A stretch of 43,165 nucleotides of DNA from Rhodospirillales bacterium (lineage in GTDB: Bacteria > Pseudomonadota > Alphaproteobacteria > Geminicoccales > Geminicoccaceae): positions 1 to 43,165 of the forward strand of contig WFXL01000150.1 in assembly GCA_015490605.1 (NCBI GenBank), in the 5' to 3' direction. Under the pieces are notes generated by a model, which saw only the letters and a program-made list of their open reading frames with translations, was not told the DNA's origin and made no database searches. Each line of letters opens with the position of its first letter. Positions within the stretch are counted from its first letter, which is position 1. A program made the translations under genes and the position numbers. Below, piece after piece: positions 3,261 through 35,041 of this stretch.

Positions 3261-3686
3261 TCAGACCGCGAGCGGCACCAGGCCGGCCACCACCAGATAG
3301 CGGAGGCCCTTGCCGAGGGCGACCAGCGGCAGGAAGAGCCAGAGCGGCGTGCGGAACAGGCCCGCCACCAGGGTCAGCGGATCTCCCACCAGCGGCAGCC
3401 AGCTCAGCAGCAGCGCCGGCGTGCCGAAGCGGCGAAAGAGGCGCTCGGCTTGGGCATAGCGCTTGGGGTCCAGCGGAAAGCGGCGGTGGTGGCGCAGCGC
3501 CGCGAGCCCTCGGCCGATGGCCCAGTTCACCAGCGCGCCGAGGGTGTTGCCCAGGGTCGCCGCCGCCACCAGCGGGCCGAGGCGCTCGGGCGCTAGCCAC
3601 ACCGCCCCCGCCAGCACCGCCTCGCTGGAGAAGGGCAGGATGGTGGCGGCGAGAAAGGCGGAGAGAAAGACCGCCGCCAGCGACAC
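3261..3686 (-). CDS. YqaA/DedA-like small membrane protein
   Basis: 141 aa hydrophobic: MSLAAVFLSAFLAATILPFSSEAVLAGAVW...SWLPLVGDPLTLVAGLFRTPLWLFLPLVALGKGLRY. Confidence 0.78.
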   Translation of the reverse strand: MSLAAVFLSAFLAATILPFSSEAVLAGAVWLAPERLGPLVAAATLGNTLGALVNWAIGRGLAALRHHRRFPLDPKRYAQAERLFRRFGTPALLLSWLPLVGDPLTLVAGLFRTPLWLFLPLVALGKGLRYLVVAGLVPLAV

Positions 3687-3689
3687 GGA

Positions 3690-4079
3690 TCAGACGGCGG
3701 CCACCACCCGCTGCAGGCGGGCCCTGACCTCGCGCGCCACCTCGTGCACCGTGGGATTGTCGATCATCTGCATGGCGGCCTCGGGATCCATGGCCGAGAC
3801 CTCCACCCGGCCATCCTCGAGCTCACGCACCACCACATTGCACGGCAGCAGCACGCCGATGTGGGGCTCGGCCTCCAGCACCCGATGCGCGAGCGGCGGG
3901 TTGCAGGCGCCGAGGATGAGATAGGGGCGCATCTCCAGCCCCAGCTTCTGCTTCAGGGTGGCCTTGACGTCGATCTCGGTAAGGACGCCGAAGCCCTCCT
4001 TGGCGAGCTCCTCGCGGGTGCGTGCCACCACCTCGTCAAAGCCGCGTCCGTCAATGATGCGGTCGATGCTGTAGCCCAT
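3690..4079 (-). CDS. DUF302 domain protein
   Basis: 129 aa: [74 protein letters not shown], classic DUF302 pattern. Confidence 0.85.
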
Positions 4080-4095: not shown

Positions 4096-4521
4096 TCAGC
4101 GGACGCCGTTGGCCCGCTGCAGTTCCCTCAGATAGGCGATCACCGCCGGAATGTCGTCGTCGGCGACCTCCGGTCGCGGCGGCATGTCGCCGAAATACCA
4201 GTGGTGCTGACGCACGCCGAAGCGAATCGCCGTGGCGAAGGCGAAATCCGCATGGTGGGCGGGGCGGTAGATGGGATGCACCAGCGGCGGCCCGCGATCA
4301 CTGCCACCGGCGGTGGCCCCGTGGCAGCTGGCGCACTGGGCCTCGAACACCGCCTTGCCCCGCTGCGCCAAAGGCGAGAGCTGGCGCGGCAGCGTCACCT
4401 CCACCAGCGGGGCTTCCTGCTGGCGGCTCCACCACCACCAGCCGGCTGCCACCACCACCACGCCCAGCAGCAGCCACCACGCACTGCGCCGACTGCCGGC
4501 GGCAGGGGACGGCTCGCTCAT
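4096..4521 (-). CDS. membrane-anchored c-type cytochrome
   Basis: [31 protein letters not shown] anchor, single CASCHG heme motif, distal [14 protein letters not shown]. Confidence 0.85.
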
Positions 4522-4555
4522 CCCTGCCCTCCTCCACCGGTTGCCTCCCGCAGAT

Positions 4556-4583
4556 GGACCTTCCCCCTGCGGGAAGGTCAAGC
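4556..4583 (-). promoter_or_regulatory. CueR/HmrR-type MerR-family operator-promoter (copper-responsive), site 1
   Basis: Minus strand CTTGACCTTCCCGCAGGGGGAAGGTCC: perfect 9-bp arms GACCTTCCC/GGGAAGGTC around GCAGG, -35-like TTGACC followed by a 19-nt spacer; upstream of the cytochrome c gene. Confidence 0.7.
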
Positions 4584-5411
4584 GCGCCCGCCCGGGGCAC
4601 TCGCTGCACTGGCATCGGTGCCACGGGCAAGCCGCAGGCCGATGGCGGTCAGGGCCGTGGCGGTCAGGGCGGATTCGGCATAGCCCAGCGAGCGCAGAGC
4701 AAGTTCCAGCAGCACCGCGCCCACGGTGAAGGGACCGCCCTCCGACGGCAGCTTCACCCCGTCCTCGCCCACCAGCCACCCCACGAGGCTCACGCCCAGC
4801 GCCGCCGCCAACACCAGCGGCAGCACCATGCCGAGCTGGATGGCGAGGATCCGCAGCGCCTGGCCGCGGGTGCGCCGCCAGGTGGTGGCCGGGGCGAAGG
4901 TGCCGTCGAGGGCGGCGGCGACTGGCAGCGGCGCGAGCCGCCCATAGACCCACAGCACCACCGCCACCAGCCCGAGCCCCGCCGGCAGCATCAGCAGGCC
5001 GGCCAGCGGCGTGGCTTCGCGTGCGGCCACCGCCAGCAGGGTGAAGAGGAGGAAGGGCATCAGCCCGGCGAGTGCTACCAGCAGCCCCACCAGCAGATGC
5101 CCCAGCAGATAGCGCGCGGCCATGGCATCGAAGGGAGCACCCAGTCGCGGCCAGGGATCGCCGCGGCGGATGTGGCGCACGAAACTGGCGCCCAGGGCAC
5201 TCATGCCGGCGAAATCGAGGAAGCCACCCACCGACGACCAGCCCTCGATGCTCCCGAGCCCCCAGCGCGGCGGCAGCGTGGCCACGGCGAAGGCCGCCAG
5301 CAGCCACGGCAGCGCCAACCGCGCCATCACCGGCTGGTGATGGAGCACGAAGCGCCAGGACTCGGCCACGATGGTGGCGACGGGGAGCGGGCTCGCCATG
5401 GCGGCATCCAA
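4578..5411 (-). CDS. multi-pass membrane protein of unknown function
   Basis: 277 aa, several hydrophobic segments (LLAAFAVATLPP, LLVGLLVALAGLMPFLLFTLLAVAA, LAGLLMLPAGLGLVAVVLWVYG). Confidence 0.65.
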   Translation of the reverse strand: MDAAMASPLPVATIVAESWRFVLHHQPVMARLALPWLLAAFAVATLPPRWGLGSIEGWSSVGGFLDFAGMSALGASFVRHIRRGDPWPRLGAPFDAMAARYLLGHLLVGLLVALAGLMPFLLFTLLAVAAREATPLAGLLMLPAGLGLVAVVLWVYGRLAPLPVAAALDGTFAPATTWRRTRGQALRILAIQLGMVLPLVLAAALGVSLVGWLVGEDGVKLPSEGGPFTVGAVLLELALRSLGYAESALTATALTAIGLRLARGTDASAASAPGGRA

Positions 5412-32133: not shown

Positions 32134-32553
32134 TCACGCCACCGCCCGCGGCTCGGCCGCTTCCTCCTCCGCCGCCAGATCCTCGAGGATCGGACAGTCG
32201 GGCCGGTCCTCCCCGTGACACTTCTCCGCCAGATGTTCCAGCGCCCGCTTCATCGCCTCGAGTTCGCGGATGCGCCGTTCGATCTCGCGGATGCGTGCCA
32301 GTGCCAGCCGCTTGACCTCGGCCGCCGAGCGCTGAGGGTCGAGGTAGAGGGCCAGCAGTTCACGGCAGTCCGCCACCGAGAACCCCAGCGCCCGGGCCCG
32401 CTGGACGAAGCGTAGCAGGTGGACGTCGCGCTCGCTGTAATCACGATAGCCGTTGTCCTTCCGCCCGCTCGGCCGCACCAGGCCGATCTCCTCGTAGTAG
32501 CGCAGCGTCTTCGCGGGCAGCCCCGCGCGCCGTGCCGCCTCGCCGATGTTCAT
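32134..32553 (-). CDS. cueR: MerR-family copper-responsive regulator (CueR/HmrR-like)
   Basis: MNIGEAARRAGLPAKTLRYYEEIGLVRPSGRKDNGYRDYSERDVHLLRFVQRARALGFSV...CHGEDRPDCPIL metal-loop cysteines. Confidence 0.9.
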   Translation of the reverse strand: MNIGEAARRAGLPAKTLRYYEEIGLVRPSGRKDNGYRDYSERDVHLLRFVQRARALGFSVADCRELLALYLDPQRSAAEVKRLALARIREIERRIRELEAMKRALEHLAEKCHGEDRPDCPILEDLAAEEEAAEPRAVA

Positions 32554-34975
32554 GGCTCTCCTCCTCCTGTGGGATCTCCGGCCGCCAGCGCCGCAGCAGC
32601 AGCGCGTTGGTGACCACGCTCACGCTCGAGAATGCCATGGCGAAGGCCGCCACCGCCGGATCCAGCAGACCCGCGGAAGCAATGGGAATGCCGGTGACAT
32701 TGTAGATGAAGGCCCAGAACAGATTCTGCCGGATCTTGCGGCGGGTGCGGCGGGCGATGTCGAGGGCCGCCGGCACCAGCACCGGCCGCGGCCGCATGAG
32801 GGTGATGCCGGCGGTCTCGAGCGCCACATCGGTGCCCGAACCCATGGCGATGCCCACATCCGCCGCCGCCAGCGCCGGCGCGTCATTGACACCATCGCCC
32901 ACCATCGCCACCACCCGGCCCTCGCCCTGCAGCGCCACCACCCGCGCGGCCTTCTCCTCGGGCGGCACCGGCGCCAGCACCTCATCGATGCCGAGCCGGG
33001 CCGCTACCGCCTCGGCGGTGGCGCGATTGTCACCCGACATCATCACCACCTTGAGGCCCTCGGCCCGCAGCCGCCGCACCGCCTCGGCCGCATCCGGCCG
33101 CACCCGGTCGGCCAGGGCGATGAGGCCTGCCACCCGACCGTCCACCACCACCCAGGTGACGGTGGTGCCCGCCCGCTCGAGCTCATCCGCCCGGCGCTCG
33201 ACGGCGGGGTCCACCGAAAGACCGGAGGTGGCAAAGCCGGGTCGGCCGACGCGCACCCCGTGCCCCTCCACCTCGGCTTCGATGCCACGCCCGGGTACTG
33301 CCTGGAAGCGGCTCGGCGGCGTCAGGGCAAGGCCGCGCGCTTCGGCCGCCCGCACCATGGCGCGCCCGAGCGGATGTTCGCTGCGGAGCTGGGCGGAAGC
33401 CGCGAGCCGCAGCACCTCCTCCTCCGACGGGCCGAGGGGCACGATCTGGACCACATCTGGCCGGCCCTCGGTGAGGGTGCCGGTCTTGTCGAACACCACC
33501 GTATCGGCGGCGTGGGCGCGCTCCAGGGTTTCGATGTCCTTCACCAGGATGCCGGCGCGGGCGGCCGAGCCGGTCCCCGCCACCAGTGCGGCCGGCGTCG
33601 CCAGACCGAGGGCGCAGGGACAGGCGATCACCAGCACCGACACCGCCGCCACCAGCGCCTGTTCGAAGGTGCCGCCGGCCAGCAGCCAGCCGCCGAAGGT
33701 GAGGGCAGCGATCCCCACCACCACCGGCACGAACACCGCCGCAACCCGGTCCACCAGCTTCTGGATGGGCGCCTTGCCAGCCTGGGCCTGTTCCACCAGC
33801 CGGGCGATGCGGGCCAGGGTGGTATCGCGGCCCACCCGGGTCGCGCGCACCTCCACATAGCCGCTGCCGTTGACCGCGCCGGCGATCACCGTATCGCCCT
33901 CACCCCGGGCCACCGGCAGGCTCTCGCCGGTGACCAGCGACTCGTCGAACTCGCTCTCGCCCGCGAGGATCACGCCATCCACCGGCACCCGCTCGCCGGG
34001 GTAGACCAGCACCACATCGCCCACCCGCACCTCATCCACGGGCACCTCCACCTCTTGCCCGTCGCGGCGGATACGGGCGCGCTCGGGCCGCAGCTCCATC
34101 AGCCGGCGGATGGCCTCGGCGGCGCTGCGCTTGGCCCGCTCCTCAAGCCACTTGCCGATGCGGGTGACGGCGATGATGGCGGCGGAGGCCTCGAAGTAGA
34201 GCAGGCCCGCCGAGGCCGCGCCCAGATCCCATACCAGCCACAGGCTGTAGCCATAGGCGGCGGTGGTGCCGAGCGCGATCAGGAGGTCCATGTTGCCGCT
34301 CTTTGCCCGCAGCGCCTTCCAGGCCCCACGGTAGAAGCGCCAGCCGGCGATGAACTGGACCGGCGTGGCCAGCAGCACCTCCTGCAGGGGCGTCAGATGG
34401 AACGGCCAACCCACAAGGCGCGCCACCATCTGGGCCACCAGCGGCAGGGTCAGGATCACCGACCCCAGGGTCAACAGCGCGTCCATACGGCCGCTGCCGG
34501 CACGTTCCGGCGTCTCGTGCCGCGTCTCGCTCTGCAGATGGGCCTCATAGCCTGCGGCCTTGACCGCCTCGATCAGGGCCCGCGGCTCCACCGCACCCGC
34601 CACCACCTCCACATCCGCCCGCGCCAGCGCCAGATTGACCCGTGCCTCCAGCACGCCCGGGACCCGGCGCAGCGCCTGTTCGATGCGGCGCACGCAGGCG
34701 GCACAGCTCATACCCTCGATGGTGAGGGTGACGGTCTCGCGCGGCACGCCATAGCCGGTGCGCTCCACCGCCTGCACCACCTCCGCAAGCGAGCCCTCGG
34801 ACGCGAGCTCCACCCGTGCGCGCTCCAGCGCCAGGTCCACCTCGACCCCACGCACCCCCTCCAGCTTCTCGAGGGCCTTGCGGATGCGCGTCGCGCAGGC
34901 GGCGCAGCTCATCCCCTCCACCGGAAACGCCAGCTCCTGCCCGGCCTTGTCCATCGCACCGGCTGTCTCGGCCAT
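32441..34975 (-). CDS. copA: Cu(I)-translocating P1B-type ATPase
   Basis: Two GMSCAAC heavy-metal domains, ACPCALGLATPAAL, DKTGTLTEG, GDGVNDAPAL; 3' end overlaps cueR by 113 bp. Confidence 0.94.
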   Translation of the reverse strand: MAETAGAMDKAGQELAFPVEGMSCAACATRIRKALEKLEGVRGVEVDLALERARVELASEGSLAEVVQAVERTGYGVPRETVTLTIEGMSCAACVRRIEQALRRVPGVLEARVNLALARADVEVVAGAVEPRALIEAVKAAGYEAHLQSETRHETPERAGSGRMDALLTLGSVILTLPLVAQMVARLVGWPFHLTPLQEVLLATPVQFIAGWRFYRGAWKALRAKSGNMDLLIALGTTAAYGYSLWLVWDLGAASAGLLYFEASAAIIAVTRIGKWLEERAKRSAAEAIRRLMELRPERARIRRDGQEVEVPVDEVRVGDVVLVYPGERVPVDGVILAGESEFDESLVTGESLPVARGEGDTVIAGAVNGSGYVEVRATRVGRDTTLARIARLVEQAQAGKAPIQKLVDRVAAVFVPVVVGIAALTFGGWLLAGGTFEQALVAAVSVLVIACPCALGLATPAALVAGTGSAARAGILVKDIETLERAHAADTVVFDKTGTLTEGRPDVVQIVPLGPSEEEVLRLAASAQLRSEHPLGRAMVRAAEARGLALTPPSRFQAVPGRGIEAEVEGHGVRVGRPGFATSGLSVDPAVERRADELERAGTTVTWVVVDGRVAGLIALADRVRPDAAEAVRRLRAEGLKVVMMSGDNRATAEAVAARLGIDEVLAPVPPEEKAARVVALQGEGRVVAMVGDGVNDAPALAAADVGIAMGSGTDVALETAGITLMRPRPVLVPAALDIARRTRRKIRQNLFWAFIYNVTGIPIASAGLLDPAVAAFAMAFSSVSVVTNALLLRRWRPEIPQEEESHEHRRGGTARGAAREDAALLRGDRPGAAERAEGQRLS

Positions 34976-35012: not shown

Positions 35013-35041
35013 CTGGACCCTCCAGCAGAGGGAAGGTCAAG
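35013..35041 (-). promoter_or_regulatory. CueR/HmrR-type operator-promoter (copper-responsive), site 2 upstream of copA
   Basis: Minus strand CTTGACCTTCCCTCTGCTGGAGGGTCCAG: TTGACC, 19-nt spacer, dyad ACCTTCC...GGAGGGT. Confidence 0.75.

Follow-up and report, generated by a model that had tools for sequence, protein, structure and literature searches.

A predicted CueR-type operator-promoter upstream of a cytochrome c–DUF302–VTT operon in a Rhodospirillales bacterium

The locus considered here raises the question of whether an operon that encodes a c-type cytochrome can be assigned to the copper regulon of its genome when no copper genes adjoin it. In the window (the whole stretch of DNA that was analysed, 43,165 nucleotides from a member of the family Geminicoccaceae), copA lies about 30 kb from the cytochrome operon, and the link between the two is a CueR box only. 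A preliminary description of the window had taken this box for a second CueR/HmrR-type operator and had placed the cytochrome operon in the same copper regulon as copA. The features that bear on this proposal are collected in Table 1.

Table 1. Predicted regulatory sites and genes of the window, with the other boxes of the same genome (positions that begin with C).
Feature	Position	Strand	-35 start to start codon (nt)	Spacer (bp)	Description
CueR/HmrR-type operator-promoter of cytC–DUF302–VTT (predicted)	4555..4581	minus	60	19	-35, 19-bp spacer with 9-5-9 dyad, -10-like hexamer
-35 TTGACC of cytC operator-promoter	4581–4576	minus
-10-like hexamer CATCTG of cytC operator-promoter	4551..4556	minus
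cytC	4096..4521	minus			membrane-anchored mono-heme c-type cytochrome, 141 aa; PF00034 E=4e-15
DUF302 protein	3690..4079	minus			129 aa; PF03625 E=3e-30
VTT-domain (YqaA/DedA-like) membrane protein	3261..3686	minus			third operon gene; PF09335 E=2e-14
CueR operator-promoter of copA (predicted)	35014..35040	minus	65	19	TTGACC-19-CAGATG; fifth box, slightly weaker than strict
copA	32441..34975	minus			Cu(I)-exporting P1B-type ATPase, two HMA domains; TIGR01511/TIGR01525
cueR	32134..32553	minus			Cu(I)-responsive MerR-family activator, 139 aa
Box of coxII–coxI–cupredoxin-like operon	C37:31116		70	19
Box of secreted YVTN-type β-propeller gene	C134:7592		59	19
Box of His-rich CopB-type ATPase gene	C2:17733		57	19

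Read on the minus strand, the site upstream of cytC consists of TTGACC, TTCCCGCAGGGGGAAGGTC and CATCTG in that order, the last hexamer ending at 4551, and the 27-mer at 4555–4581 is TTGACCTTCCC-GCAGG-GGGAAGGTCCA. The preliminary description had located the site at 4556-4583, which is correct as to its presence on the minus strand but off by 1–2 bases in its coordinates, and had called the dyad perfect. The latter term applies to the arms GACCTTCCC and GGGAAGGTC at 4557–4579, which form a perfect inverted repeat of 9+9 bp around a 5-bp centre, but not to the outermost bases of the 27-mer, which are asymmetric (TT…CA). This is the sole dyad with 9-bp arms and a 5-bp spacer in the whole window, and the ACCTTCC…GGAAGGT dyad inside the promoter spacer, present as ACCTTCCC-GCAGG-GGGAAGGT, has a chance expectation of 0. 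A search of the window for the 27-mer at up to three mismatches returns three rows that correspond to two sites, the cytC site and the copA site, while the expectation computed from 100 dinucleotide shuffles of the window is 0.00. The copA site is two mismatches away from the 27-mer pattern, and both sites have TTGACC followed by a 19-bp spacer, so the common architecture that had been reported for the two operators is borne out.

The hexamer CATCTG is a poor match to the -10 consensus, yet it stands exactly at the 19-bp CueR spacing, and its counterparts at sister sites are CATGTG and CAGATG. The frame formed by a TTGACC- or TTGACA-like -35 element and the 19-bp spacing is kept at ten sister and congener sites. 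The -35 element starts 60 nt ahead of the cytC ATG at 4521, which is preceded by GGAGGAGGG; at the other end of the site, the TGA stop codon of an upstream ORF (5411–4578) falls inside the -35 hexamer. The product of this ORF (window 4578-5411) is a membrane protein without a Pfam match. The published CueR signal is ACCTTCCC-(5)-TGGAAGGT with a promoter spacer of 19 bp (Permina et al. 2006, PMC1526738), and the cytC site is one base away from it.

The gene cueR begins before the copA frame has ended, and the cueR product scores 169.6 bits against the CueR equivalog model TIGR02044 (NCBIfam), for which the cut-off is 147.4; the ZntR, MerR and CadR models score well below TIGR02044 on the same product. 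The best solved match is E. coli CueR (1q05, E=3e-33). The metal loop has the form C-x7-C, reading CHGEDRPDC in the CueR of the window and CPGDDSADC in the solved CueR. The divalent-metal sensors have Cys at the position of Ser77 in E. coli CueR, where the CueR of the window has Ala, as read by eye from the alignment.

A motif scan of the genome, which the preliminary description had proposed as a check, shows how selectively the box is distributed. The strict pattern TTGASCTTNCCNNNNNBGGRA, scanned at zero mismatches over the 2.19-Mb draft genome, occurs in four boxes as against zero in the reversed control, and two of the three boxes other than that of cytC precede copper-efflux or heme-copper-oxidase genes. 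When the copA box is added, the genome has five boxes, all of them with 19-bp spacers and situated 57–70 bp upstream of the start codon. The β-propeller gene among the targets was named by eye and from annotated homologues. A multicopper oxidase (L012:6892-8292) and a second MerR-family regulator (C134:12045) lie 3–5 kb from the box of this gene, and no strict box was found at that multicopper oxidase. Two looser matches were not counted, one (C130:637) because its TTGAAC half-site is shifted and no copper gene was seen there, and the other (C156:9331) because the surrounding sequence looks coding. Since the draft is 89% complete and is divided into 157 contigs, additional regulators of the MerR family, or additional boxes, may be absent from it.

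Related genomes allow the association of the box with the operon to be followed. In a congener with a genome of 2.7 Mb (G002), the strict pattern occurs only twice, before copA and before the orthologue of cytC–DUF302–VTT, in which the gene order is kept. The cytC box there is TTGACC-19-CATGTG, and the CueR is 92% identical to that of the window. The upstream neighbour of the window operon was not found beside the G002 operon, and because the upstream flank differs, the box travels with the operon. A second congener (G001) has no orthologue of the cytC–DUF302–VTT operon, and its boxes stand at other genes. One of them precedes the orthologous cox operon (L159); the heme-copper oxidase operon behind the box at C37:31116, with its box kept in this congener, would bring a terminal oxidase into the copper-sensor regulon. 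Two further boxes in G001 (L125 and L128, assigned by eye) stand before a gene for a small protein, with a Rieske gene next in line, and before a gene for a DUF5676-like two-helix membrane protein; gene kinds of both sorts, Rieske and DUF5676, also occur in the Indioceanicola copper island. In the sister genus (g2; genomes G004, G019 and G025), no box lies directly upstream of cytC–DUF302; a box follows the pair instead, and in G019 this box is situated ahead of a copB-like ATPase gene.

At the level of the class, homologues detected with the cytC profile are present in 22 of 289 sampled genomes, the genome of the window included. With a threshold of at least 14 matches to the 18 consensus positions and an upstream search range of about 320 bp, a box is found directly upstream in 11 of the 28 cytC homologue loci outside the family, distributed over 6 of 15 families. 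The background rates are 0.05% for shuffled upstream regions and 3.8% for other windows of the same loci; the latter rate means that the neighbourhoods of cytC homologues hold several boxes, some of which are probably also real because the loci are copper-rich. The arrangement box–DUF4396–cytC, divergent from cueR, is present at three additional loci from two families (L205, L207 and L208); the label DUF4396 is a reading of the translation. The DUF302 family, by comparison, appears to be linked to copper in part only: of 80 named DUF302 loci, 13 have a CopA or CopB homologue no more than 4 kb away. DUF302 alone was also considered as a tag for the operator and was rejected, since most of the 80 loci are without a box.

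The plasmid-borne homologues of cytC supply evidence of another kind. A sample of 15 loci, made up of the seven top matches and eight taken at even steps down the ranking, was inspected, and every one (15/15) lies inside a copper-resistance cluster, with multicopper oxidases, copper P-type ATPases, CopB/C/D, CusA or CueR as partners; the Roseicitreum plasmid also carries a DUF302–VTT pair. The kinds of gene that are boxed here or in G001, for Cu-ATPase, β-propeller, VTT, DUF302, Rieske and DUF5676 proteins, form physical clusters in Ruegeria, Roseicitreum and Indioceanicola, and the β-propeller of the plasmid loci is YncE. Because the same kinds of genes are clustered on plasmids, the assignment of the operon to the regulon is supported independently of the motif. 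The plasmid copper islands of Dinoroseobacter and Phaeobacter (L185, L186) hold four cytochrome genes together with ccmF/ccmI/dsbE, as if they carried a private maturation line.

The three genes are separated by gaps of only 16 nt (cytC/DUF302) and 3 nt (DUF302/VTT), and they are therefore likely to form one operon. The cytochrome has the heme site CASCH (C63, C66, H67), with M113 as the likely axial ligand, and its predicted structure includes an N-terminal helix (residues 10–33) that is presumably a membrane anchor. This structure was predicted from sequences of the window and the sampled genomes, and a structural search with the model recovered only the generic class-I cytochrome c fold, with no match below E=0.001. 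In the alignments, the homologues pair HH and HHW motifs with CXXCH and an axial Met, and the residues H89, H90, H106, H107 and W108 are invariant in 48/48 and 42/42 aligned sequences, while HH pairs are absent from the related CcoP-like control cytochromes of the same genomes. These conserved His pairs may constitute a copper site. The DUF302 protein, for which the profile score is 104.5 bits as against a gathering score of 23 (Pfam PF03625), has two Cys that are invariant in the alignment (C59, C80), a predicted structure with a pLDDT of 92, a solved homologue in TT1751 (1j3m), and no signal peptide that could be seen.

The earlier proposal, which placed the cytochrome operon in the copper regulon of copA and CueR, thus draws support from the CueR encoded beside copA, from the small and specific set of boxes, from conservation in the congener, from the boxes at homologues, and from the copper neighbours on plasmids. 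The cytC site, the other boxes that accompany it in the genome, and the conservation of the site can be read directly from the sequences, and the operon is predicted from them to be under CueR control with a probability of about 0.92, a figure that covers the control of the operon and excludes its biochemical role. By analogy with established CueR biology, CueR would bind the site and activate it in a Cu(I)-dependent manner. When copper is absent, CueR would hold the promoter inactive on account of its over-long 19-bp spacer; Cu(I)-CueR would then distort the promoter, so that RNA polymerase fires and transcribes cytC–DUF302–VTT behind a leader about 20–25 nt long, in step with copA–cueR and with the genes for the CopB-type ATPase, the coxII–coxI–cupredoxin operon and the β-propeller protein.

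The biochemical roles of the three proteins are weakly constrained. The most likely task of the operon would be redox protection of the periplasm under copper stress, in which the His-rich, membrane-anchored cytochrome would pass electrons toward a terminal oxidase, perhaps taking them from Cu(I) or from a respiratory chain damaged by copper, or leading them around such a chain; the DUF302 protein, with its two invariant Cys, would be a cytosolic copper- or redox-handling partner, and the VTT protein would be an accessory membrane protein. A more specific version, which is speculative and rather unlikely in all its parts, would make the HH…HHW cytochrome a CueR-controlled electron-entry protein that binds and oxidises Cu(I) and sends the electrons to oxygen by way of the cupredoxin and the heme-copper oxidase of the coxII–coxI–cupredoxin operon. 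If true, this would amount to respiratory copper detoxification, complementing or replacing a CueO-type multicopper oxidase.

An alternative account of the role of the operon, which is compatible with CueR control, deserves to be taken seriously as a tentative possibility: the operator may be copper-responsive while the cytochrome handles no copper and is instead a replacement electron carrier, needed since copper blocks the assembly of c-type cytochromes. According to Durand 2015, as cited in PMC10304878, the toxicity of copper in the periplasm is known to act on this assembly, and both the ccm maturation genes beside these cytochromes in some plasmid copper islands and the presence of the coxII–coxI operon in the same regulon fit such a function, but a role that is specific to copper is suggested by the invariance of HH…HHW and by the multicopper oxidases and Cu-ATPases that constantly accompany the cytochromes. 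As regards CueR control itself, it is very unlikely that another MerR-family regulator, for example that at C134:12045, binds the cytC box and that the operon answers a different metal. The genome does have at least three other genes with a MerR_1 domain, and MerR-family boxes look alike, but the half-sites agree with the CueR signal of PMC1526738 and with the box of copA, the neighbour of cueR, and not with the MerR and ZntR signals given in the same paper, and the strict box in G002 is limited to copA and the cytC operon. Finally, that the dyad is an RNA hairpin (a terminator or attenuator of the upstream gene) or a chance palindrome is scarcely credible, because, although a GC-rich inverted repeat directly after an ORF whose stop codon it overlaps might suggest a hairpin, there is no terminator-like T-run 3' of the dyad on either strand and no terminator call, which tells against a hairpin, and the zero expectation in shuffles and the conservation of the site tell against a chance palindrome; in addition, the -35/19-bp frame is kept at every sister site, and G002 retains the half-site sequence itself, beyond mere complementarity and despite a different upstream flank.

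With CueR control as the preferred reading, the regulon of a copper sensor would come to include a c-type cytochrome and a DUF302 protein, as well as a heme-copper oxidase of the same genome, and several families of the class lend support to this. DUF302, a family that has solved structures and whose function is not known, would thereby gain a testable context, and the conserved His pairs of a widespread cytochrome are flagged as a possible copper site. The cytC box is a refinement of known regulatory logic and represents no new mechanism of regulation. The idea of cytochromes in the CueR regulon is not new, since Permina et al. 2006 (PMC1526738) had predicted CueR sites upstream of the cytochrome c553/c554 genes of three Vibrio species. 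A limited literature search found no description of the DUF302–VTT operon, of the wide link between box and cytC, or of the cox operon in this setting; it likewise found nothing on DUF302 with CueR, and only passing mentions of DUF302 or DUF4396 with copper.

The system may be compared with four known ones. Gammaproteobacterial loci (L061, L064, L069, L086) also have a mono-heme cytochrome gene directly before DUF302, and the HH pair of their cytochromes aligns with H89–H90 (hhalign probability 98%), but these cytochromes belong to another subfamily (GHxWHH; PPLNGxGHxWHH) and are without HHW at the second position, and no CueR box was found directly upstream of the pairs. The Vibrio c553/c554 genes (PMC1526738) resemble the present case in that a c-type cytochrome is a predicted member of the CueR regulon, a likeness in the kind of gene, whereas a DUF302–VTT operon is not described for them. 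The copA/cueO operators of E. coli and the actP–hmrR operators share with the present sites the TTGACC -35 element, the 19-bp spacer, the ACCTTCCC-(5)-xGGAAGGT dyad and the position of cueR beside copA; they differ in that the targets here are cytC–DUF302–VTT and the cox operon, and not cueO, and in that the -10-like hexamers here are weak. The plasmid islands of Ruegeria, Roseicitreum, Indioceanicola and Dinoroseobacter contain a homologous cytochrome together with multicopper oxidase, Cu-ATPase, VTT, DUF302, β-propeller, Rieske or DUF5676 genes; in these islands the genes are clustered, and several of the islands carry two-component regulators, whereas in the genome studied here the genes are scattered, with CueR boxes as the tie between them.
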